From positions 1-32,719 of the IMG/VR virus record IMGVR_UViG_3300020731_000055: 32,719 bases of DNA; one strand, given 5' to 3'. Below, piece by piece: positions 6,001-27,325 of this stretch (positions within the stretch are counted from its first letter, which is position 1; every line of letters begins with the position of its first letter). A program made the position numbers and the translations under genes. Source of the stretch: a virus. The notes beneath the pieces were generated by a model. That model was not told the origin of the DNA. It ran no database searches and worked only from the letters and a program-made list of their open reading frames with translations.

Positions 6001-9000
6001 GAGGGCTATCAGTATCATAAAAATACTTGTAAATTCCTCTCCAATATCCTGGAACAGACTCATTGAATAACTTATCAAACCCTGCACTATAATTAAAACT
6101 AAATGCATCATTTTGTACAGTAATAGTATTGTTGAAAACATTTACATTATTGTTTCCTGCCCAATTTAAGTAAGACAAGCTTAATAACTGAGTCCACTCA
6201 TCTATACTATAATCAGTATTCCTAAATGCGCCTGGTTCTATTGTAGTATAACTAGTCTGCATATCATTGGTAAATTCAACTGAAATATTATTGTAGATTC
6301 TTTTTTCAAATTCTAATATAATATCATCTCTGTAGTCACCAAAAGCAATTATTTTACTGCCATCATGGCCTTGAATTACGTTTATTGGATTACCAATGTA
6401 CGTGTCGTCGAGAAATAGTGCAGGAGTAAATTTTGGATACAGGCCTAACTTGGTTGGTGTAGCAGGAATCATGCAACCTTTAGTTGATGCATATTCATAA
6501 ATGCTTACAGTATCATTAATTGCAATTGTTAAATCACTGCTTAGTGTAATAACTGAACCATTATTTGTATAATCACTACCAATTAATAACTGTGTTCCAT
6601 TTAGATACACTAATACTGCTTGATATGTTGGGTTAACAACATCAAATGAATTAATAAGATTAAAGTGTCTATAATTTGTATCATAAACTGGATAATCATT
6701 GCGAATATATTTGTTAATGCCAAATGGCATCATGTCAGTAAAATAGAAAGCTTGATTACTGCTGACGTTGGCTACAATTTCTTCCATAATAATATCAAGA
6801 TTAGCTTGAGCATCTGCAGAATCACCAAATTCCATTGTCTTTAGAAGATAGAAAAATCTATCTTTAAATCTGCTATAAGATTGTCTATTAAAATTTAATG
6901 ATCTAATAATATTAGTACTATCATTATTAAACATTAGCTGTGCTAAATGCACACCTGAACTATGCTGTAGAATCTTTCCGGGAATAACCTTATAATTAAT
7001 GTCTCTGAGATTATTATTGCCAAATGAATTTACAGAATAATCTAAACTATTGTTAGACATTTCAACAAGATGATTTCTTACTTGACCAAGCGTTAAAGTT
7101 TTGAAATTATTATTCTCACTATTATCTACCAGGTTTTTTGGTAATGTAAAGTTTTCTTTAAGATTTAATGTTGTGCCACGAATATTAATTACTAATACAT
7201 CGCCATCTACTAAATCATTTGTCAAATGAATCTGAGATTCTTGACTATTACCCAACAAAGTAAAATCAACAGTGTCTGTTAAAGCAACATTATTCACATA
7301 AACAAAAATGTTCTTTTCATTAAAACTATTTTGATAAACAATGTCTATAGTAAAGTCATTGACTTTATATTTTGTTGCGGTGAACTTTCTTTGAATAAAT
7401 TGTTTGCTAGGATCAGCAATTCTGGTCCAATTATTTCTTAGACGAATACTTGAGCTTGCAGGAACAAGTTCATGAGCAAATCCGCTGTTGATATCAACAG
7501 TAAAGTCGGCATCGTTTAAGCTATAATTAAAAGTATCTACGTCATAGAAATTTTGAAATAATATGTCGCCAATATTTCCAATGGATTTATAGCTTAGTGC
7601 AAATCCTAATTCTGTATCTCTAGTTCCATTTGCATTTTCTAAATAACCAAATAAAGCAGATCCTGCAAAATTTGTACTGGGATAATATGTTTGATCGCCA
7701 AAGCTATTTCCATTGATGTCAAATATATCAAATAAAGGATTTTGATTCAAACTAAATTTCTGTTGGGCAACTTGCCAATTTCCATCATGCCACCAATAGC
7801 TAACATTCTGTCTACTTACTCCACTAATAGCAACAACACTATCGCCTTCCTGCATTGTATGCACAGGCATCAAATGTACTTGTGCAACATTAGATCTGAA
7901 AGTTAATACAGTGCTGGTTGCAATATCATTTGAAATTTCATTATTGAAAGTAACGATGTTATACGAAGTATCAATTGCTGTTATCACTGTGTTTGCAGGG
8001 ATATTAGTTCCTGTTACTGCCATATTAACCAAAAGATTAGCTATGTTATTAACTTTTACTTGTGTGCTGTTAATGGGGGTGAAAGTAACAGTTGTCTTAT
8101 TAAGAGTTGTGTCAGTATATGGATTAATATTTTGTACAAGATATATTTTGTTCTTAGTATTTTCATACTTCTCTGCGGTGAAGATAACATAAGTTCCATC
8201 TTCTAATGCAACATTGTCACTATAATAATTTCCAGTTGAATCAATTAATGCATATGGACTATGGCCTTCAACTTGATTACCAATATCAGTAACTTCAGTA
8301 TCGATTACCGTTACTGATTGCACATAATTTGTCCCATGATCCCAAAGTCTAAGATTGCAATCAAATTCAACAATTGGTCTGATAGCTCTGTAACTGTTAT
8401 CCAACACAACTGTTTCAGATGCGTTTAAGAAAGTATCAGCATATCTAATAACATCTTCATGAAACCAACGGTTAGTACGACTCCATGCATTTCCGTCAGT
8501 GCTTGCACGATTAATAACAATATAATCTTTACGTAATGGAGCATTTAAGCTTAGATCATAGTTTAGACTGTCATACGGCTCTGACGAAGAATCAAAACCA
8601 GAACCTTGATTTGGATTATTTGGATCAGGTGTAACTAAACTAGCATACGGAACCAACTGAATACCAACACCAACACCTTCAACAATATATTCGTTGTTTA
8701 GATAAGTTGCTGGATCAACTGAATTAGTAAACTTAACTTTTAATCCATTGGTAAACTTAACTCCATTTGGACTATTATAATTTGCCTTACCAACAACATC
8801 ACTGATTTTAATAGTACCCTGTGTACCTTGCTCAACAATTCTAATCTCACCAAATGCATTTGGATCTATACCATCTTGATAATATAGTACATCAAGATTG
8901 GCAGTAATGTTAGGCAGCTTGTTAATGTTGTTTAATGTGTCTTTAAAAATATATAAGTGTCCAAATTCAACACCTTCATTGACAAATATTTTAGTGTTAG

Positions 9001-10057
9001 AAGGCCAATCTTTAATATATGAAAGTACAATTATGCCATTAACATTGCTGATCTGCCAGATACCACGACGTTGGTTGGTGGGAATATCTCCCCATTGGTC
9101 ATCTTGATTATTTGTTAAAACAATAGTCTTAGATAAGAATTGATGATTGCCATCAATCGAATTTGTCAGCGTGAAATCTGCATAATTAGCACCCTGTAAC
9201 TGACTGTATGGTAAGTCAGTTACTTGATCTACTGTATCAAAAGTAGTCATGTTTTCATAAAAATCTTGATCATCAACTTTAGGTACATTGAAAATAATGT
9301 TGCCAGATACAGCGCCGTTATTAGTAACTCCATAAATGTTTCGTGTACTAATGTTATTTTGAAAAGCAGCAGCTCCTTGAATACCAGGAGCTGTTTGAAT
9401 ATAGAAAGGATGTCCAGGCTGACCTACATTAAATGTATAATTGCCGCCTCTTACTAACGTGATTACAGGATTTATACTTCCAGGAAATCTATCAATACTA
9501 TATCCAACTTGCCCAACATTTTGATTAATCAATGTTTCAGAAAGTATGTCAGTTGCATTTGGGCGCGACACTGTGAATGTTTCTATTAATGGCAAACCAC
9601 CACTGTTTACTTCAAGTGTAGTTGGACCATTTGGCAGCCAATAATATCTACTATAATTAATCAACTTATCAAGATCGACAAATCCTTCATAATTATAATA
9701 TTCATTAGCAAACAAGCGACTATGATCATTAGTGATACCACCGCCAAGTGTGATTGCATTTAGCAAATCTACATAATTGAAAGCATTATCCACTTTAAAA
9801 TTATTAGTGTTAAACACTCTCTTGTTAATAACAAGACCAGGTTCAAGTTGATAAAATTGACTGTAGCTGTCTGTCTCTTGAACATAAGCATCGCCTTTTT
9901 GAAAAGCAGGACTGAGATCCTGACGACCTACATATCCATAGAGCCTGTCAAGATTAGGCTCCTGCAATAATTGATCCATCGTCGCATTCAAAAATCTACG
10001 ATTTGTATTACTCTGAAAAACTTTAGGAAGAAAGTCTAAGGATTTTTTATCAACCAT
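1..10057 (-). CDS. Giant baseplate/tail structural protein, partial (C-terminus outside window)
   Basis: One reading frame stays open from ATG at 10057 to the left edge, so at least 3352 codons are present and the C-terminus is missing. I checked the frame for stops over most of its length and found none. It begins MVDKKSLDFLPKVFQSNTNR, 20 bases after the gp6 stop and behind an AGGATAGG-type ribosome site. It occupies the place of T4 gp7 (about 1030 residues), so it is probably a wedge-periphery or fibre-network protein. Around residues 1330-1420 it carries an aromatic segment (YKYFYDTDSP, then PWEMLGF) that I associate with large structural proteins of marine T4-like phages. Several small beta modules of the type VYLNGTQLLIGSDYT recur near residues 920, 1150, 2430 and 2560. 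Residues about 2279-2906 hold seven FG-GAP-like repeats, listed separately. The existence of the gene is certain; its exact role is inferred from position. Confidence 0.9.
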   Translation of the reverse strand, partial: MVDKKSLDFLPKVFQSNTNRRFLNATMDQLLQEPNLDRLYGYVGRQDLSPAFQKGDAYVQETDSYSQFYQLEPGLVINKRVFNTNNFKVDNAFNYVDLLNAITLGGGITNDHSRLFANEYYNYEGFVDLDKLINYSRYYWLPNGPTTLEVNSGGLPLIETFTVSRPNATDILSETLINQNVGQVGYSIDRFPGSINPVITLVRGGNYTFNVGQPGHPFYIQTAPGIQGAAAFQNNISTRNIYGVTNNGAVSGNIIFNVPKVDDQDFYENMTTFDTVDQVTDLPYSQLQGANYADFTLTNSIDGNHQFLSKTIVLTNNQDDQWGDIPTNQRRGIWQISNVNGIIVLSYIKDWPSNTKIFVNEGVEFGHLYIFKDTLNNINKLPNITANLDVLYYQDGIDPNAFGEIRIVEQGTQGTIKISDVVGKANYNSPNGVKFTNGLKVKFTNSVDPATYLNNEYIVEGVGVGIQLVPYASLVTPDPNNPNQGSGFDSSSEPYDSLNYDLSLNAPLRKDYIVINRASTDGNAWSRTNRWFHEDVIRYADTFLNASETVVLDNSYRAIRPIVEFDCNLRLWDHGTNYVQSVTVIDTEVTDIGNQVEGHSPYALIDSTGNYYSDNVALEDGTYVIFTAEKYENTKNKIYLVQNINPYTDTTLNKTTVTFTPINSTQVKVNNIANLLVNMAVTGTNIPANTVITAIDTSYNIVTFNNEISNDIATSTVLTFRSNVAQVHLMPVHTMQEGDSVVAISGVSRQNVSYWWHDGNWQVAQQKFSLNQNPLFDIFDINGNSFGDQTYYPSTNFAGSALFGYLENANGTRDTELGFALSYKSIGNIGDILFQNFYDVDTFNYSLNDADFTVDINSGFAHELVPASSSIRLRNNWTRIADPSKQFIQRKFTATKYKVNDFTIDIVYQNSFNEKNIFVYVNNVALTDTVDFTLLGNSQESQIHLTNDLVDGDVLVINIRGTTLNLKENFTLPKNLVDNSENNNFKTLTLGQVRNHLVEMSNNSLDYSVNSFGNNNLRDINYKVIPGKILQHSSGVHLAQLMFNNDSTNIIRSLNFNRQSYSRFKDRFFYLLKTMEFGDSADAQANLDIIMEEIVANVSSNQAFYFTDMMPFGINKYIRNDYPVYDTNYRHFNLINSFDVVNPTYQAVLVYLNGTQLLIGSDYTNNGSVITLSSDLTIAINDTVSIYEYASTKGCMIPATPTKLGLYPKFTPALFLDDTYIGNPINVIQGHDGSKIIAFGDYRDDIILEFEKRIYNNISVEFTNDMQTSYTTIEPGAFRNTDYSIDEWTQLLSLSYLNWAGNNNVNVFNNTITVQNDAFSFNYSAGFDKLFNESVPGYWRGIYKYFYDTDSPHLRPWEMLGFSQQPSWWAVRYGPAPYTAGNLVLWKDLELGLVYQHGIDSYVDVRYARPGLTSIIPVDDHGFLLPPISSIVVNWKEQTAGADWKFGDQSPQETAWRRSSDYPFAVQIAWALARPAEYSALSLNRRDVVRIDSLNQIINKITGKRTFNLLVSDDNQYVPGSNIWIRDRLADIGLDITVNFIEIFNNYKLNLLYKTSSFTDKEYLQITATQSSPNSTNSGILIPQENYNVVLTKSAPIAIASYSAIIIQKGSYGFKVYGFDNQRPYFTIIPRNYNNNNYTIKVSNSSALVYQDNQSTVNVIPYGTSLTSVQQVVDFIISYGKFLTAQGFQFSDENGNSVTDWVLPVKEFLYWLEQGWDNGTVLSLTPTGSNVKFTSQFGIVDDITNGFSDARIIDSDGKTLQATDYAAYRTGNNFELMFRDPTKGVHLIDMFVVLYEHTLIFDNTTVFNDVIYEPSLGNRQYRLKIRGFKTSEWDGSLFAPGFLVNYRPVDQWLPITDYRKGEVVLHKNQYYTARQFIPGATKFNNKDWYQIDGRLLSKQLIPNMAFNAQQFEGFYDVDNFDVNASADMSARNSTGFVPRQYMTDIGLDDISQHKFYLGMIREKGTQAAVNAFLRVKLPYLDNSVVIDEQWAIRLGNYGGSKQKSDVELSLANATPLNGAYVIELINNSDEKSTLWNSYKPQDLLIKPTIYDTEIFKATEKNPAQIGMTGPVLINEVDTTVFDIVKIPNISGFATILGEGSRIWVGADPANSWNVYRLTMDNNALRVMSAVIINKEIEFTTNVSHGLSNQDIIMIKNGVVNNTKTTLAGFYRITSGTDNTFRTPMYTNMTAASGNINQPSGGLMFKLKSVKYSSNASSNLSAKGSFALDYPGKLNFARQLTSHPNWQEGDMAWINNDDGSYEVLTNSYQWKLTESLTPAFSSTSDNFGMSVDIKASQDIMIVGAPNYSNSGSVYVYKQNDDATWAVIDNILPEDSHAANFGYCVKYNNLDLMVIGAPNSNSNAGLAYIGTTTSSTVHLKQAICVNGISSSANFGKAVALSRDGNWLAVGAPGTNRVYVYKYNTVTTSVSTYVAQSQVNFSIPLSAQGLNLTANDVKVRVNGKLLIPYLDYTLGDVLIFSVLTHDIVTLLTTPSATDSVEITYESWYRYATDFTSADAAGSFGFSMNFTDDGSQLAIGAPTLTNTINNISYSNMGAAYVYERTIESFFSVGSAGETFTLENTPIMPRVYVDGVENFAYTIVSTTLKFTNLLETGSIVTVETNNFLLVEKKLPAIPNATGQINLKFGLCVVICPTTCSLYVGAPGYNNYSTTNGAVFRFVNTGKLYGTIVANNSNPLFNFDSSIRINGFKVTFTGYTSAQAALDINKANIPGVTATAFGSTITISSNSNIIYNKLNINSTTSYYKLSDLGFTVFSQYQLLSTNNSQTTTNYGSTVYVNNTGDKLIIGSNIATNQTTKTFDLGFTTFDGKSTTFFNAKYRSGAAYLYEYQSDTNETMLSHGNFAFTQTLTVDALETNDLFSTGVAMSENWLMITALNSNVNAGTVYSYQNSTGNPNWTLTRSSSNAVDTRKIERVYLYNNNTKILMSELPVIDPEHGLPTETTPEQIRYIVNYDPATYTNVPNTYSFSVSQTKSWGAEHVGELWWDTSGIRYVDWNQGTVLDRLNNWGLSFPSSFVSVYEWIESDLTPSQYAKANPNAGPTYTVSDVYTSKVVIDSSTLTSSTKYYFWIRNSNGNSPRRGMTALQIQNLIANPRNSNEPFAAVIGTNAMALFNCQDIINNDTCLHISLTDSRDVNPVHQEWSMFDDGTDFGVATEFLDRLNDSLSGEDSQGRLVPDPALTTKEKYGLSTIPRQSTFVDKFAGRQIWVENVNAILAKYPMALLRDVTPFQSHDPIPVIDGITLNLMVANDTELSYYNSVLYKNGQKAIVESDSVTGGWTIRELMVDPADATKISWQIIVAQSYDVRNYWSYTDWYATGYSKDTIITKTVDYEYQIAA
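1340..3222 (-). other. Seven FG-GAP-like repeats (predicted beta-propeller domain) inside the giant protein
   Basis: Seven repeats run N to C in decreasing coordinates. Each has an FG or similar turn, a hydrophobic strand ending in GAP or a variant, and a strand such as YVYK. The GAP-type cores lie near 3146-3154 (IMIVGAPNYS), 2990-2998 (MVIGAPNSNS), 2828-2836 (LAVGAPGTN), 2444-2452 (LAIGAPTLTN), 2075-2083 (LYVGAPGYNN), 1640-1648 (LIIGSNIATN) and 1382-1390 (LMITALNSN). Seven such repeats is the number found in integrin-alpha-type propellers. Repeats 1-3 are tightly spaced. Repeats 4-6 are separated by inserted small beta modules, and 6 and 7 have lost the exact GAP sequence. The fold is inferred; the repeats are directly visible. 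Confidence 0.75.
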
Positions 10058-10077
10058 TTTATTATTAACCTATCCTA

Positions 10078-13000
10078 TTATATCTGACTTGCGTTTATAG
10101 TACCGACACCACTTTGATTTATTCCAACATATACGCCACTTACGACTTGCACGTTATCTGCTGTTGCTGCACTAATTAATATTTCATTTGGTTGACTACG
10201 AATTTCATATAGGTTACCAAATTTACTGTTAGGGCTAGTGGGAATTAAAATTACGCTACTTAAGAAAGTCCCTAATTTAGTATGCAAATATGCAGACAAT
10301 TCACTGAAGTAAAATGTTTGTCCAAAATCCCAATTTTCTAAATTAAAATAGTTGTTGATTTGCTCAACTAGCATACTTTTTAATTCATTGTCACTGATTA
10401 CAGTATTTGGATTTTTTACAATTTGAAAAGTTGCTTGAAGAGATTGATCAGCTTTCTTACCAAACAATGGCTTATAACTACCTGAATTTAAAATCATTTC
10501 ATCACTGATCATCTTCAATGTCATTAACTGTGCATAAGTGTTGTTTAATGTTACACTGTCTAAAACAGCCGGTTCTGTTAAAGTTCCTGTGAAATCAGTA
10601 ATGTAATTTCTATAGGCTTCATCATAGCTGCGTGTCAAGATGTAAGTGTCAATTAAGTTACTGGCAGCAGGATCAATTCTTCTGCTGTCGCTGGCATTGT
10701 GACGATACTGGAATATCAAATCTTGTCTTCCAGTAAAAGCAAGATAGTTTGTGCTGACATCAACAAGTGTATTAGCAACGCCATTATTAACAATCTGATA
10801 AAACAACTGATCAGTTGTTGCGTAGAATAATCTGCCAGCTGGAAAATTATTTCTAACATTGTCAATTGCTACTTTAGTTGGGTAACTATAATTCACAGTG
10901 CCACTATCTAATAATTGAAATCTAATTAAATTATCATAATCTACATACTGCTGATAGAAAACATAAGTGTTTACTGCAACTGCCGACGAGAAAATATTTG
11001 GATCCAGTGGTAAACTACCAGTTGACCCAGTTGGGAAAGTTACTTGAACTTTAGTACTGTCGATATATCCATCTGCTTCGATACCATTCTTGTATATTTC
11101 AAGTGTTATTACTCTTGGTAATTTACTTGTTCCAGCAGTGTTTAAATTGGTCTGCAATAACTTTATATTGTCTTTAATGATAGTATTAGTTCTGCTATCA
11201 TAAACAGGAGTAGGATTAGTGTTTAAAAATCTAACACTATTTGTACTGCTGAAAATATAATCTAATCCTCTGTACTTTACAGTGTATTCAATTCCGTTAG
11301 TATTGAATAGTAATACCCAACTGCTGTCATTTGACACCCCTGCATTATTCAGTGAAAATGCACTTGTAGAATCTACATTACTAATAGGAATTATTTTCCA
11401 CGGATCACCAGTAACAGTGTTAGTATAATCATATCTTAAAGCAAATTCTATGTTGTTTAACACATAAGTTGTTATAGTATTGATTAGTAGATTACTAAAA
11501 GAAGTTGTATAAGGTGCATAAATTTCAGTGATTACTGCACCAGTGGGAATACTTTCACTGATAGTTACTGCACCTATAGATCTGCCTGCTAGATAAATTG
11601 GGGTGCTACCGTCGCCAATTTGGCTGTTGATAGTTGCCCAAATTTCTGTTTTGTCGTTGGGTAAAGATGGTGTGCCCAGTATCAAACTGTTGCTGCTATC
11701 AAAATAATATCCAATTGGCGCAGAGAATTTAATTAAACTACCCATTAACAAATACCTCAATGTAGTTGAAGTAAATGCACCAATCGGGGAATAAGTTGTT
11801 GCTCCACCCTCAAAGAAAAATCCAGTTGAGGTATTAGTATCGTCAGTTTGTCTTTGCCAATATGTATTAGTTGGAAAAAATTTAGGATAATTTTGATAAT
11901 AAAAATGAATATTACTCTTACTAGCAATAATTGGTTGTACTTCACCAAAGATAGTTTTCAAAACATCATTACGGCTGCTAAAAGTAAATTTAATTGTGTT
12001 TAAAGTTTCATTTTTGTAGAAACTGCCATCACTGCCAAACAAATCAGTTGAGCTGTATTTTCCAGTTGGATCAATAATATCAAGATATCGACTAATGCCG
12101 CTGCTATAACGGTTTACTGATTTTACTTTTACAATGTCAGCATATGTGGTATAAGGAACAATATTATAATCCTCACCATTTACCATACGACCTTGACTGT
12201 AGAAATTTTGCGGAGCTTTGTCTTTAATTTCTTGGATAAGATCACGACGACTGCTATTAGCAACAGTATATTGCAAGCTTGCAGTAACAGTTAATTTTTG
12301 AGGACTGCCATCTTTAGCAACGTATGGAATCACAACTGTAATGCCAGACATGTCTGCAGGACTAATACGATAAGTTAAGCCATTACTAACTCTGAAAAAG
12401 CTTCTAAAATTTCCGATTGGAATGTCAGAAAATGTATCGTCACCAAACACAAGATCAATTTGATCATTGGCGCGAGTATTAACACTATAAAGTGTTCTGA
12501 TACCTCTTGCGGTACTATTATAGATTGCGTTGCTACCTGAGATTGACGGTACTTTTGTCCACTGTGTTGATAGATTTCCTGTGGTGTCTATTTCATAAAG
12601 CCAAATATCTTCATTGTTGACGTTGTCAAGATTTATTCCAAGTAGTCTATTAGGAATTTTATCTGTTAAAGCAAAATCTATTGCGTTAATAGAACCCTGT
12701 TTAAAATAAACAAAGTATCCTGAATTATTACTGCTGTTACCAAGACCATCATTTTGATACACAATACCAAATGCTCCCACTATTCCAGGATCTTGTTCAG
12801 TAATTGCATTTGAATTAGTGATACTTGCACTTAATAGTTCAAATGGAAATGTTGTATCATTTACAACAGAATTAAAAGGAAATACAGGAGGACTTACTGT
12901 AGTAGGCACTGCAATATTGTATTGCTCAGTTTTAATGTTGTTAATTGTCTTACTAGCAAAAGGCTTACCAATACGCTGACCTGGACTTAATGCGGCATTC

Positions 13001-13982: not shown

Positions 13983-16316
13983 TTAACATCCACCACCACC
14001 GCCGCCCGCGCCACTTGATCCAGCTGCTGCTGCACCACCTGGAGAACTTGGATTCGACGATCCAGCTACGCTACTATCTGTTGAATTAGCAGTATCAACT
14101 GATGGAGATGAACTACCAGCTGATGTTGTGTTATTACTTGATGTATTAGCAGATATACTAAATTGATTAACAGATTGATCCGAATAACCCGCTGATCCTA
14201 TAAATGGCTGACTAATTGATCCAGGACCCGATTGATCTAAACTTTCTATCATACTACCATTTGGTGTAATTTGCGGCAATACAGCAGCTCCATTTACTTG
14301 TGAAGTGCCAGTAAAGTCTAACCCATTTGTAGGATAAGAAAGATTATTGTAATTATTAGTGTTTGTATTAACTACATCATAGCCAACTGACTGCCCATTA
14401 GCATCAACTTGTGAAGAAGGTACATAACTTACCCCATCAGGTAAAGGCTGTGCTTGCTGTACATTAACAGGAATTGGAACATTTTGATTATTATAATATC
14501 CTATAACTTGTCCTGCCTGATTAAATTGAGGGAACCCAGGTGCAACTGTATTTCCAAAATTTGTCTGTGTATTCTGAGGTCCATAGCTGGTATCAACAGC
14601 AATAGGAGGAGAATTAACATTGGATGGAGCAGCAGGACTAATAGTGGCAGTAACTTGTTCATACCCTATTACTGATCCACTACCCGCAGGATCATATATC
14701 GGAACAAGCGTAGCTGCTTGAGTTGACTGAGTTGCTTGCTGACTAGTAGTTTGCACAGACGTATCTGTTACAAATCCACTTGGTGTAATTGTAACAGCAG
14801 GTGCTGATGGAGTAGTTTGAAAATCCAATAGATATTGCTGATACGTCGGTGCATTTGGATTCGAAGCAGCTTGAGTTTCATATGTTGATAAGTCAAGCGG
14901 AGTTGCAGCTTGAGTAAAAGACCCAGTTGGCACAATTGTAGCAGATCCTGGAATCAGTGGCACATTTGACATAGGCACAGCAACTTGCCCAACATCAGGT
15001 TTTGTAGCGTCAAGTGAAGTAGTTGATGCAGGAATAAAAGTTTCTGCAGATGTTGGGGCAGATTGTTGTATTAATCCGCCATTACTGTTAATCGTAAAAA
15101 AACTACCTGTTACAGGGATTGGTACTTGCCCAGCATTACCAATCGATGCTGCGGTTAAATCTGTGCCTGCAACTACTTTTCCTGACAGGTCAACTGATCT
15201 AATTGTATTGTCAGACGCTGTAAAAGTATATCCTAAAGTATTATTATTTGTGTCTTTTATTGTTGTTACAGTGCTATTAACAGGTAATCCAACTGTAGCA
15301 GCAGTAGGAGCAAAATCTGAAGATATAGTAATGGGAGTGGCATTAGTACTGACAGGTAATGCAATAGTTTGAATATCGCTAGACGGTCCTCCAGAAGGAC
15401 TAATTGTTGGTGCAACTGTTGCTATTTCGTTATCAGCTGAATCGTAAATTGTTCCTGTTTGAATATTTTGATAATAAACTAATCCATTGTTTCCTGTAAT
15501 TTCTCTATATGCTCCTGTACCATCACTGGATACAAAATATGGATCAGTAACTGTATATTTTGCTCCTTGAAATGGAAGATTATTATACAAAGCATCATAT
15601 GTAGCGCCAGTGATAGTTGTACCTGCAGGAATTATGCCAGTGGTATTAACAACAGCGCCACTGGCATCTGTAAATGAGCCATCTGCTTGTTTTATTAACG
15701 TGTCACCAGTTTTAGGATTTGTATATGCTGTTGTTCCATTTGCATTAATTACTTGTGCTGTGAATCCATTAGCTGATGGATTAAAACTATTCGTAGTTGC
15801 AGCAGTCTTTGCAGCATTAACAACTGGTGTTGTACTAGCTCCAAATATAGTATCTTTAACTGTTTGAATTGCATTGCTGATTGGTGTTGTTATACTTGAT
15901 ATAGCAGATGAGATAGAATTAGGCAATGTTATTGTTGGCAGTGGTCCCAATGCTGTGCCAGCACTGATATAACCACTAACATTAACAGAAGTTATACTAC
16001 CTCCCCCAGTACTAACAGCAGTGGATGCAGGACTTACAAATCCAGAAGTTCCACTATTATTTTCAATACCCAGCTGAGTGGGATTTAATTCTTTATCTAA
16101 TGTTCCAGGATCAATGCCTATACCTTTAGCAATGCCTTTAACGTATTGATCATAACTGTAGTTGTCTCTGCCTTGTTCAGCAGTAGTGATCGCAATGGCC
16201 ATAGTAAGTTTAGTCATTGGATCGTTAACATCAATTTGTTGATTTGGATCTAACCCAAACTTAGTAACAACTTTAGTTAGGAAATTTATATAAGCGGGAT
16301 CTGTTTTTGTTACCAT
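13983..16316 (-). CDS. Low-complexity virion protein carrying the second half of a hydrolase-like domain
   Basis: 777 residues. The first 50 or so (DPAYINFLTKVVTKFGLDPN, then DVNDPMTKLTMAIAITTAEQ) resemble the C-terminal half of the phage muralytic-type domain that in other proteins starts with NNPGN. The matching N-terminal half ends the gp5-like gene just upstream. The rest is rich in Ser, Thr, Gly, Asn, Ala and Pro, with loose repeats of the type GxxxGY (NTLGYTF, GSVIGYEQV, GQVIGYYNN, GQSVGYDVV) that suggest an extended or beta-rich stalk. It ends in a run of glycines followed by a single terminal Cys. Its ATG overlaps the upstream TAA (TAATG) with AAAGGGA nine bases before, so translation is probably coupled. 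Its position between gp5 and gp25 makes it a tail-tip or baseplate component; no T4 counterpart is recognised. Confidence 0.75.
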   Translation of the reverse strand: MVTKTDPAYINFLTKVVTKFGLDPNQQIDVNDPMTKLTMAIAITTAEQGRDNYSYDQYVKGIAKGIGIDPGTLDKELNPTQLGIENNSGTSGFVSPASTAVSTGGGSITSVNVSGYISAGTALGPLPTITLPNSISSAISSITTPISNAIQTVKDTIFGASTTPVVNAAKTAATTNSFNPSANGFTAQVINANGTTAYTNPKTGDTLIKQADGSFTDASGAVVNTTGIIPAGTTITGATYDALYNNLPFQGAKYTVTDPYFVSSDGTGAYREITGNNGLVYYQNIQTGTIYDSADNEIATVAPTISPSGGPSSDIQTIALPVSTNATPITISSDFAPTAATVGLPVNSTVTTIKDTNNNTLGYTFTASDNTIRSVDLSGKVVAGTDLTAASIGNAGQVPIPVTGSFFTINSNGGLIQQSAPTSAETFIPASTTSLDATKPDVGQVAVPMSNVPLIPGSATIVPTGSFTQAATPLDLSTYETQAASNPNAPTYQQYLLDFQTTPSAPAVTITPSGFVTDTSVQTTSQQATQSTQAATLVPIYDPAGSGSVIGYEQVTATISPAAPSNVNSPPIAVDTSYGPQNTQTNFGNTVAPGFPQFNQAGQVIGYYNNQNVPIPVNVQQAQPLPDGVSYVPSSQVDANGQSVGYDVVNTNTNNYNNLSYPTNGLDFTGTSQVNGAAVLPQITPNGSMIESLDQSGPGSISQPFIGSAGYSDQSVNQFSISANTSSNNTTSAGSSSPSVDTANSTDSSVAGSSNPSSPGGAAAAGSSGAGGGGGGC

Positions 16317-16515
16317 TATTTTATATTCCCTTTACGATCCATATATCCTTGGATGAAGTCTGCAACAGTCATAGCACCATCACTTTGTATTATGTCTAAA
16401 GCAACACCCAATGCTGCAATACCATCTTCGGGAGTTGAATATAAGTTCAATCCATTGGTTTGTCCAATTGCAAATGGATCTTCTAATAATCCATTTAAAT
16501 CGCCGGGATTGTTTT
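16168..16515 (-). other. Muralytic-type domain split over two genes
   Basis: The last 67 residues of the gp5-like protein contain NNPGDLN, then IGQTNGLNLYSTPEDGIAAL, then MTVADFIQGYM. This is the order seen in the N-terminal half of phage lysozyme/transglycosylase-like virion domains (NNPGNI, GQ, F-x-S/T-P-x-x-GI-x-AL, TI-x-x-II). The next gene opens with the remaining half (AYI-x-x-V, G-x-x-P, D-x-x-DP, AI-x-x-x-E-x-G). The two halves are in different frames, joined by a TAATG overlap. Motif matching was by eye. Confidence 0.6.
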
Positions 16516-18154
16516 GTTTTTCGCCTTGTGTTAAATCAGGAACTGTTGCCAACTTGGCATTAGTTACATCAACAGCAAAGCCGCTAGTTGCAAGTGGTAA
16601 GCTAATACTTGTATTTGTAAACAATACGGAATTTTGATCAAATTGATTTAATCCTGCTGTTGCACCTTGATCAGCAGCTTGTCCTGCCATACTAGCCTGT
16701 AAGCCTGTATTAAATTTAATAGGTCCATTGGCATTTGTATATGCTCCATAGTAGTTGGGATTATTAGGAGTAGCACCAAAACTTGCAGCAGCTCCATAAT
16801 TACCCGACGCACCTGCAGGAACACCACTGGCTGCGGCATAGCTAGTACTAGACACAGGACTGTTTGTTCTACTGCTAATATGCTGATATGGTTCGTGACT
16901 GGGACCTTGTACTTTTAATGGAATATTTGGCATACTGGGAAGACTGGGAGTTGGCAAACTTGTATTAAGTGTAACGCATCCGCCTTTAATATCAGTATGC
17001 ATCAACCCCGAGATACTTACGCAAGTTAACGCACTAGCACTAACTGATAACCCTGACAGGCTAATTGCTCCAGCAGTTGCACCTAAACTGACACCCATGG
17101 TGCCTTTAACACCAACATTCATACCACCAATACTAACAGATGATTGGGCACTAAGATTAATAGAACCAGCACTTACCACAAAGCTGCCTGGCGTATCAAA
17201 TTGAAACCCGCCGGTTGCATGTGCTTGCACTTGTCCTTGACTAAACATTTTAATGTTGCCCTGAGCATCCATTTCAAACCATGCAGTGCCGGTGCTATTA
17301 ATCATATAGATAATGCCTGCACTATCATTCATTAATAACATATTGCCGTTACTAGTTCGCAATCTTATTAATTGATTGTTGCCATTGACATCACCATCAT
17401 CCATAACAAACTGATGACCGCCTTGACGTGCTGTTATTCTTAAATCTACATATTGATCATCACCTGTACTAGCAGTAGCAGGAGGAGCAACTTCAGGCCC
17501 TGGTGTACTAATACCAAATACTCTGCTGGGAGTTTCTCTAAATGCACTGCTTGTCCCTGGACCTCTAAAAGGATCTTGTGTTAGTCCTTGTCTTGCCCAA
17601 ATTTGATTTTGATAATCATGTATTGTTGTAGCACGATTATAGAAAGTTGATGTAGACGAACTTGATGCACTAACATTTGCATCATTATATTCAACTACAG
17701 GCTCAGGTCCGCCTCCGTGCCAGCTTGCATTGCTAATACCAGGAACCATGTGTAGATTTGGAAAATCCGGAATACATCCAAACCAATATCCTTTGAAAGG
17801 ATCACCATTAATGAATGTGCATATAACCTTAACGTCAATATCAGGAGGCACAAACCACATGCCGTAACTGTGTGGGCTATCAGTAAATGTTTGATCTTGT
17901 CCTCTTGCTGAGGAAGGAGTAACTCCGTAAAATGGAGTACAATATTGTACAGTTCTCCAGCTGGCAGAATCTGCAGGATCGCCGCCTAGTTCTGGAATCC
18001 AAACTTGTAGTCTGCCAGAACGCATTGTATCTAGATTATTTTTAACCATGCCGATATATGGACCAGGACTAATTCTAACACCAGGAGCACTTTCGTGTAC
18101 AGTATGCTTAGGTGCTTTTGAAGTTGTTGTACTTGAACCAGTTATTGCTGCCAT
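16316..18154 (-). CDS. gp5: gp5-like baseplate hub / central spike protein
   Basis: 612 residues. Residues about 25-75 (PGVRISPGPYIGMVKNNLDT followed by GRLQVWIPELGGDP) are the OB-fold of gp5/VgrG-type spikes. Residues about 240-270 (GHQFVMDDGD) and the following repeats (NMLLMND, AWFEMDAQGNIKMFSQ, INLSAQSSVSIGG) have the alternating pattern of the triple-stranded beta-helix needle. The internal lysozyme domain of T4 gp5 is not seen. Instead the C-terminus (residues 546-612) is half of another hydrolase-like domain that continues in the next gene. A Ser/Ala/Gly/Asn-rich linker lies between. The start follows AAGGAAATATAA, 10 bases after the upstream hub gene. Expected role: trimeric membrane-piercing spike at the baseplate centre. 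Confidence 0.85.
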   Translation of the reverse strand: MAAITGSSTTTSKAPKHTVHESAPGVRISPGPYIGMVKNNLDTMRSGRLQVWIPELGGDPADSASWRTVQYCTPFYGVTPSSARGQDQTFTDSPHSYGMWFVPPDIDVKVICTFINGDPFKGYWFGCIPDFPNLHMVPGISNASWHGGGPEPVVEYNDANVSASSSSTSTFYNRATTIHDYQNQIWARQGLTQDPFRGPGTSSAFRETPSRVFGISTPGPEVAPPATASTGDDQYVDLRITARQGGHQFVMDDGDVNGNNQLIRLRTSNGNMLLMNDSAGIIYMINSTGTAWFEMDAQGNIKMFSQGQVQAHATGGFQFDTPGSFVVSAGSINLSAQSSVSIGGMNVGVKGTMGVSLGATAGAISLSGLSVSASALTCVSISGLMHTDIKGGCVTLNTSLPTPSLPSMPNIPLKVQGPSHEPYQHISSRTNSPVSSTSYAAASGVPAGASGNYGAAASFGATPNNPNYYGAYTNANGPIKFNTGLQASMAGQAADQGATAGLNQFDQNSVLFTNTSISLPLATSGFAVDVTNAKLATVPDLTQGEKQNNPGDLNGLLEDPFAIGQTNGLNLYSTPEDGIAALGVALDIIQSDGAMTVADFIQGYMDRKGNIK

Positions 18155-26456: not shown

Positions 26457-26491
26457 TATTGGTAAATACAATTATCAATATAGGATTTTTT

Positions 26492-27325
26492 ATGGTAAAC
26501 GATTTTGGTCACTGGATTACCACATGTGAGATAGACATCAATTCTTGGTTTGGTTTTATATACAGAATAACTAACTTAGAAAATAACATGATGTATATTG
26601 GACGAAAGCAATTCCATTCAACAAATCGTAAAAAGATTGCAAACAGGATTAACAGGAAAAAAATAGTTAAAGAATCTGACTGGAAGACATACACATCTAG
26701 TTCATTGTCTGTTAACCAACTGATTGATAAACTTGGTAAAGACAAGTTTAAATTTGAAATTATTGAATTATGCAGAACCAAAGCTGAACTTGTCTATAGA
26801 GAAGTAGAGATACAATGGGAAGAAAAAGTTTTATCTGCTACATTACCTAATGGGGAGAGAAAATATTACAATGGAAACATTGGAGCTATAAAATTTAGAC
26901 TAGACAAGCACTCTGACAAAACAAAAGAAAAAATGTCAGCGAAAGCACAAGGCAATAAGAATGCTTCCGGTAGTATTCGCTCTATTTCTACTAGAAAAAA
27001 AATGAGTGAAGCCAAAAGTGGCGTTCCAAAAACAGAAGAACATAGACAAAAACTTAGTGAAGTGAATCTGTATAAAGAGTTGTCTGACGAAACAAAAGAA
27101 AAAATAGGAATCGCCCATCGAGGAAGAGAAATCAAAAAAGAAACAAGAGAAAAAATGTCAAAAAAAGCAAAAGAGCGAAAATACATCCCGGCAATCAGTT
27201 GTATTGTTGATGGGATCGAATATGATAGCTTGGCGGCTGCTTCTATAGCACTTGACATCTCAAAGGGAGTTCTAAAAAGGCGAATCCTGTCACCGAATTA
27301 CAGTAATTATTCGTTCAAATCTTGA
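26492..27325 (+). CDS. GIY-YIG homing endonuclease with NUMOD repeats
   Basis: 277 residues from MVNDFGHWITTCEI, with AGGA about ten bases upstream. An upstream TTG is possible but less likely. Residues 20-40 (FGFIYRITNLENNMMYIGRK) hold the GIY...YIG pair as FIY...YIG. A downstream REVEIQWEEKVL supplies a likely catalytic Glu. Then come at least three NUMOD3-type DNA-binding motifs (SDKTKEKMSAKAQGN, TEEHRQKLSEVN, SDETKEKIGIAHRGR), and a C-terminal NUMOD1-like helix-turn-helix (EYDSLAAASIALDISKGVLK). This is the layout of I-TevI/Seg-type freestanding endonucleases of T4-like phages. It sits directly downstream of gp46, so the recombination gene pair is flanked by two mobile genes. Codon use is A-rich like the HNH gene. 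Confidence 0.82.
   Translation: MVNDFGHWITTCEIDINSWFGFIYRITNLENNMMYIGRKQFHSTNRKKIANRINRKKIVKESDWKTYTSSSLSVNQLIDKLGKDKFKFEIIELCRTKAELVYREVEIQWEEKVLSATLPNGERKYYNGNIGAIKFRLDKHSDKTKEKMSAKAQGNKNASGSIRSISTRKKMSEAKSGVPKTEEHRQKLSEVNLYKELSDETKEKIGIAHRGREIKKETREKMSKKAKERKYIPAISCIVDGIEYDSLAAASIALDISKGVLKRRILSPNYSNYSFKS

Follow-up and report, generated by a model that had tools for sequence, protein, structure and literature searches.

A putative Enc34-type peptidoglycan hydrolase domain divided between a gp5-like baseplate spike protein and the product of the adjoining gene in a small environmental phage family

In a 32.7-kb virus record (hereafter the window, meaning the whole 32,719-nucleotide stretch that was analysed), the baseplate genes lie on the minus strand, and the gene of a gp5-like spike meets the next gene at a TAATG junction. 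A preliminary description of this locus proposed that one peptidoglycan-hydrolase-like domain is split over the two genes there, and that the split is a working one rather than an error. The locus thus raises the question of whether such a division inside a domain is inherited, and of whether the two halves could still come together as one wall-cutting domain at the spike.

A hydrolase-like domain shared by two adjoining genes

The gp5-like gene (16316..18154, minus strand) encodes a protein of 612 aa, which matched PHROG 13211 ‘baseplate hub subunit and tail lysozyme’ at 6e-31 and Pfam Phage_base_V at 4.5e-5. Its order is an OB domain, beta-helix-like repeats, a linker and the first half of the hydrolase-like domain, and its neighbours in the window are gp25 and gp53, in keeping with a T4 gp5-like hub-spike. 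The second gene (13983..16316, minus strand) encodes 777 aa, in which the second domain half is followed by a tail rich in T, S, A, G, N and P that ends in Cys (codon at 13986..13988, minus strand), the only Cys of the protein. The N-half of the domain covers gp5 residues 548–612 (16319..16513, minus strand; NNPGDL...YMDRKGNIK, profile positions 1–63) and the C-half covers residues 1–72 of the second protein (16101..16316, minus strand; profile positions 64–132); the gp5-like C-terminus reads NNPGDL...TVADFIQGYMDRKGNIK, and the second protein begins with MVTKTDPAYINFLTKVVTKFGLDPNQQIDVNDP...AEQGR. At the junction (TAATG, 16314..16318, minus strand), the gp5 stop codon TAA (16316–16318) overlaps the start codon ATG (16314–16316), giving a frame offset of −1 from gp5 to the second gene, just as had been described. 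The Shine-Dalgarno (SD)-like AAAGGGA (16327..16333, minus strand), earlier called well placed, is indeed so: it lies within the last gp5 codons, 10 nt upstream of the ATG, and pairs with the anti-SD at a duplex energy of −5.3 kcal/mol, corresponding to approximately the best 5% of random positions and comparable to other genes of the window.

The joined sequence (115 aa) matched 39 phage records, in all of which at least 80% of the query was covered in one place. Against a profile made only from members not split inside the domain, it scored 137 bits, compared with 73 and 62 bits for the N-half and C-half, respectively, and 12 bits for the best of 500 shuffles. It matched PHROG 873 (2e-8), and profile searches against PDB structures hit the Enc34 endolysin 7q47 (7e-5) and 9vvp Gp29 (4e-9), so that the peptidoglycan-hydrolase-like character proposed beforehand can now be assigned to the Enc34 type. 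Alignment to Enc34 by hhalign gave a probability of 94% over 109 columns, with an identity of about 20%, i.e. a distant similarity. The 777-aa protein alone also matched PHROG 873 (1.5e-3) and PHROG 2276 (3e-3). Pfam gave nothing in either half and offered no convincing match to the joined domain of the window, for which PHROGs and PDB profiles did give matches.

The catalytic domain of the Enc34 endolysin is muralytic on permeabilized Gram-negative cells, and its fold is an all-helical version of the lysozyme alpha-lobe with a groove between the alpha1–alpha2 and alpha3–alpha4 loops; Glu131 is named as catalytic, together with Trp79 and Tyr95 (PMC8943055). The break in the window maps to the alpha3–alpha4 loop of this fold, between the equivalents of residues 79 and 95, in the same loop as residues 83–89, which are disordered in one crystal copy of Enc34 (PMC8943055). 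An Enc34-type domain is expected to be one continuous chain, whereas here two ORFs share it. On the basis of the profile matches, we assign the split domain to the Enc34-endolysin (PHA02564) type of peptidoglycan hydrolase as a homologue with putative enzyme status, not as a proven enzyme, because the Tyr95 equivalent is Phe in all six distinct split members described below.

Split and unsplit relatives

Relatives were gathered by scans of viral contigs, and their ORFs were then profile-searched for the domain. The same split position (profile positions ~60–65) was found in seven contigs, six of which are distinct: the window, L134, L135, L136 (with the near-identical L137), L138 and L139. The search for relatives with the domain intact in one gene, a check set beforehand, was also productive, since spike, domain and tail occur in one ORF in about 30 distinct relatives (~1050–1670 aa in the complete ones). 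Scans with each half recovered split members in the same six contigs alone, the final gp5 scan added only L191 and L225, which are truncated close relatives ending before the domain, and the scan of genome contigs found no relative. Two further arrangements were seen: L118 is divided after a canonical domain (7630–8000; ATGA junction with a strong SD, −12.4 kcal/mol), and L143 is divided before the domain (2228–2290), the whole of which lies in the second ORF.

A tree built from gp5 core sequences united the six distinct split members in one clade (support 100/91), to which L143 was sister (100/98), followed by the unsplit L130 and L132 (99/82, 99/93); the other domain-bearing branch comprised 29 intact members, L118 and the fragment L142. 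The branch of L143 is long, so its position in the tree is less sure. The simplest reading is that the mid-domain split goes back to one fission from an intact ancestor; that the gene was divided, and that the division is conserved, is nearly certain.

Every closed one-gene gp5 with the domain ends in Cys, and so does every second protein of the split clade, where it is the sole Cys of the tail, indicating that the 777-aa protein is the counterpart of the C-terminal region of a long one-gene gp5 such as that of L007. This Cys follows a Gly/Ser/Ala-rich end (L007, L093–L142), and it is also found in L218, which has other cargo; the short second protein of L143 is without it. Another 48 gp5 loci (L001, L025–L038 and others) combine a domain-less gp5 of ~450–620 aa with a coupled second ORF that precedes gp25. 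These were considered as products of the same fission and rejected, and they are left uncounted because most of the second ORFs inspected start with a separate domain, sharing (F/Y)TLPSG...APAGTTQ..AD..FY.QVAAG, that a motif search detected in no gp5 ORF.

Active-site residues, conservation and junctions of the split clade

At the alignment columns of Trp79, Tyr95 and Glu131, the split clade has Tyr, Phe and Glu in six of six members, while canonical phages have Trp or Tyr, Tyr and Glu, and the unsplit L132 has Tyr, Tyr and Glu. In the window, these residues are gp5 Tyr604 (16343..16345, minus strand) and, in the second protein, Phe12 (16281..16283, minus strand) and Glu47 (16176..16178, minus strand), such that the Trp79-equivalent aromatic is supplied by the first protein and the equivalents of Tyr95 and Glu131 by the second. 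The Tyr of an ‘AYI’ motif in the second protein, previously taken as the family Tyr, is probably not that residue; it stands three residues before the equivalent column, which by alignment spacing is that of Phe12. Since Phe keeps the aromatic ring and loses the hydroxyl in every split member, the activity may be reduced or lost. Glu, on the other hand, occurs in every member of the split clade and in L132, whereas the 25 other intact rows compared (leaving aside L130 and L132) all lack it, and it is missing from L130, L118 and L143 too; this pattern suggests selection for catalysis in the split clade. In most one-gene gp5 relatives (L007, L093–L131, L133 and L140), Glu is replaced by Ile, Val, Thr, Asn or Leu and the domain is retained, which suggests a non-enzymatic role there.

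These residues bear directly on the main rival to a wall-cutting domain, namely that the halves reassemble with the enzyme function gone, leaving a structural or wall-binding link from the spike to the tailed second protein. We consider this rather unlikely, as the conservation of Glu speaks against it, although several observations speak for it: the Phe at the Tyr95 position, the retention of a Glu-less domain by nearly all unsplit relatives, which makes a non-catalytic role viable, and the presence of other transglycosylase-type domains in two second proteins of the clade. The latter are an SLT domain in the tail of the L139 protein (7746–11186; 3.8e-7) and a Transglycosylase-like domain in that of L134 (7740–9512; 6e-6), indicating that wall cutting may not depend on the split domain alone. 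In the tail of the window protein, no further domain was detected with Pfam. A search of the split contigs gave no intact copy of the domain elsewhere in them, and PF00959 (the T4-type lysozyme domain) was found neither in the window nor in these contigs; as the contigs may be fragments, other hydrolases could lie outside them. C-terminal cargo also varies in the wider gp5 family, with SLT and VanY-like matches in L009 and other long C-termini in L218 and L222.

Alternatively, the halves might have diverged, each persisting on its own protein either as a remnant or as a small new domain, with no reassembly. They are on different polypeptides and are tied by co-conservation alone, as this reading would have it, and yet purifying selection acts on both. 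Between L134 and L138, pN and pS were 0.064 and 0.524 for the N-half and 0.091 and 0.464 for the C-half, compared with 0.140 and 0.545 for the tail. For more distant pairs, in which pS approaches saturation and identity is the one informative measure, the halves were 46–72% identical, the core 58–68% and the tail 24–33%. At matched core identity, the halves were conserved as in unsplit relatives or more, with one exception (the C-half in the 0.64–0.72 core-identity bin, 0.53 versus 0.55 in unsplit relatives, i.e. 0.02 lower). Relative to the unsplit members, the halves are thus not relaxed; both keep the active-site positions and the shared hydrophobic core, whose columns are mostly filled in both, and three-helix halves with an open core are unlikely to be kept at such identities. 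Separate fates of the halves are therefore improbable.

A single long gp5 with an additional short form, made by programmed −1 frameshifting or stop readthrough, would fit the −1 offset of the window and the A AAA stretch before its stop. The junctions of the other members make this very improbable. In every split member, the distance from the gp5 stop to the second start codon falls between −1 and +5 nt, with four geometries: TAATG in the window, L135 and L139, ATGA in L136, TAA-AA-ATG in L134 and TAA-ATG in L138. The offset is −1 in most members and 0 in L138, where TAA is followed by ATG in frame; L134 and L138 share 89% identity over the gp5 core and yet differ in frame, indicating that nothing holds the frame. 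No slippery site common to the split members was seen, and every second ORF has its own ATG and an SD-like sequence in the last gp5 codons (AAAGGGA, AAAGGAAA, AAAAGG, AAAAAAGGA, AAAAGGAGGA and GGAAGGGGGGA; duplex energies −3.4 to −11.6 kcal/mol). A homing endonuclease, intron or intein at the junction was considered and rejected, as the two ORFs abut in all split loci; a GIY-YIG homing endonuclease of SegE type (5.7e-35) is encoded in the window at 26459–27325, away from the junction.

A single-base error of sequencing or assembly in an ordinary long gp5, to which the existence of unsplit relatives might point, is scarcely credible, since the same split recurs with start signals in another five distinct contigs, which come from different metagenomes and differ in their junction DNA, one junction involving no frame change, and the original view that the split is no error stands.

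A proposed two-chain domain at the spike and its known counterparts

Taken together, we regard as probable an inherited mid-domain fission whose coupled products reassemble into a wall-cutting domain at the spike. That the two halves form one domain is likely, and that this domain still cuts peptidoglycan is somewhat likely. According to this proposal, an ancestral long gp5, consisting of spike, Enc34-type domain and a low-complexity tail ending in Cys, would have become two translationally coupled genes. Ribosomes ending gp5 would initiate or reinitiate at the overlapping start, so that both chains would be made side by side; alpha1–alpha3 of gp5 and alpha4–alpha6 of the second protein could then dock as one helical domain at the spike, with an active groove built from the gp5 aromatic and from Glu and Phe of the second protein. 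The reassembled domain would most likely help in opening the wall during infection, as T4 gp5 lysozyme does. A more tentative extension is an assembly-gated hydrolase, in which the cutting domain exists only after gp5 and the second protein have joined.

T4 gp5 is likewise a spike with a wall hydrolase, and its mature form also consists of two chains; however, it is the product of one gene, proteolysed at Ser351/Ala352 between the lysozyme domain and the beta-helix and not inside a domain (PMC3004832). This cut is made after synthesis, and the lysozyme activity is ~10% while the beta-helix is present (PMC3004832). The window chains, by contrast, come from two coupled starts, and both the hydrolase and the domain order differ from T4. 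The earlier suggestion that the domain replaces T4 gp5 lysozyme therefore holds as to place, since it sits in the gp5 protein where T4 has its lysozyme, and needs the qualification that the hydrolase is of a different type. The Enc34 endolysin shares the domain by profile and has an aromatic, an aromatic and Glu at Trp79, Tyr95 and Glu131; it is one chain acting in lysis, whereas the domain of the window is divided between the spike and the next gene, with Tyr changed to Phe.

The one-gene gp5 relatives in IMG/VR (such as L007 and L132) share the spike, the domain, the low-complexity tail, the terminal Cys and the adjoining gp25, but have a single ORF and mostly no catalytic Glu. Epsilon15 gp15 and other virion proteins of PHROG 873/2276 also contain this domain, but as one chain and in virion proteins of other kinds (head/ejection or tape measure). 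PlyC, a streptococcal phage lysin, is a wall hydrolase made from two gene products with whole domains per gene; here too there are two gene products, but a single globular domain is divided between them.

In the literature searched, we found no split gp5 or split tail lysozyme. Natural split single domains with an active site formed from two gene products are rare, and none was found described there for a phage baseplate spike. It is unusual for a gene to break within one compact domain, and this small environmental phage family has conserved such a break. As unsplit members, members split inside the domain, one split before it (L143) and one split after it (L118) occur in one family, the tolerance or exploitation of domain division is directly testable. 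The locus also illustrates how a domain of this kind can escape annotation made gene by gene, Pfam being blank for both halves. Gating by assembly is attractive but unproven; if true, the host would contain no free active enzyme and the spike would be armed on assembly, and the clade that keeps the catalytic Glu would be the very clade that divided the domain. If the reassembly is true, the pair would constitute a natural split-enzyme system.
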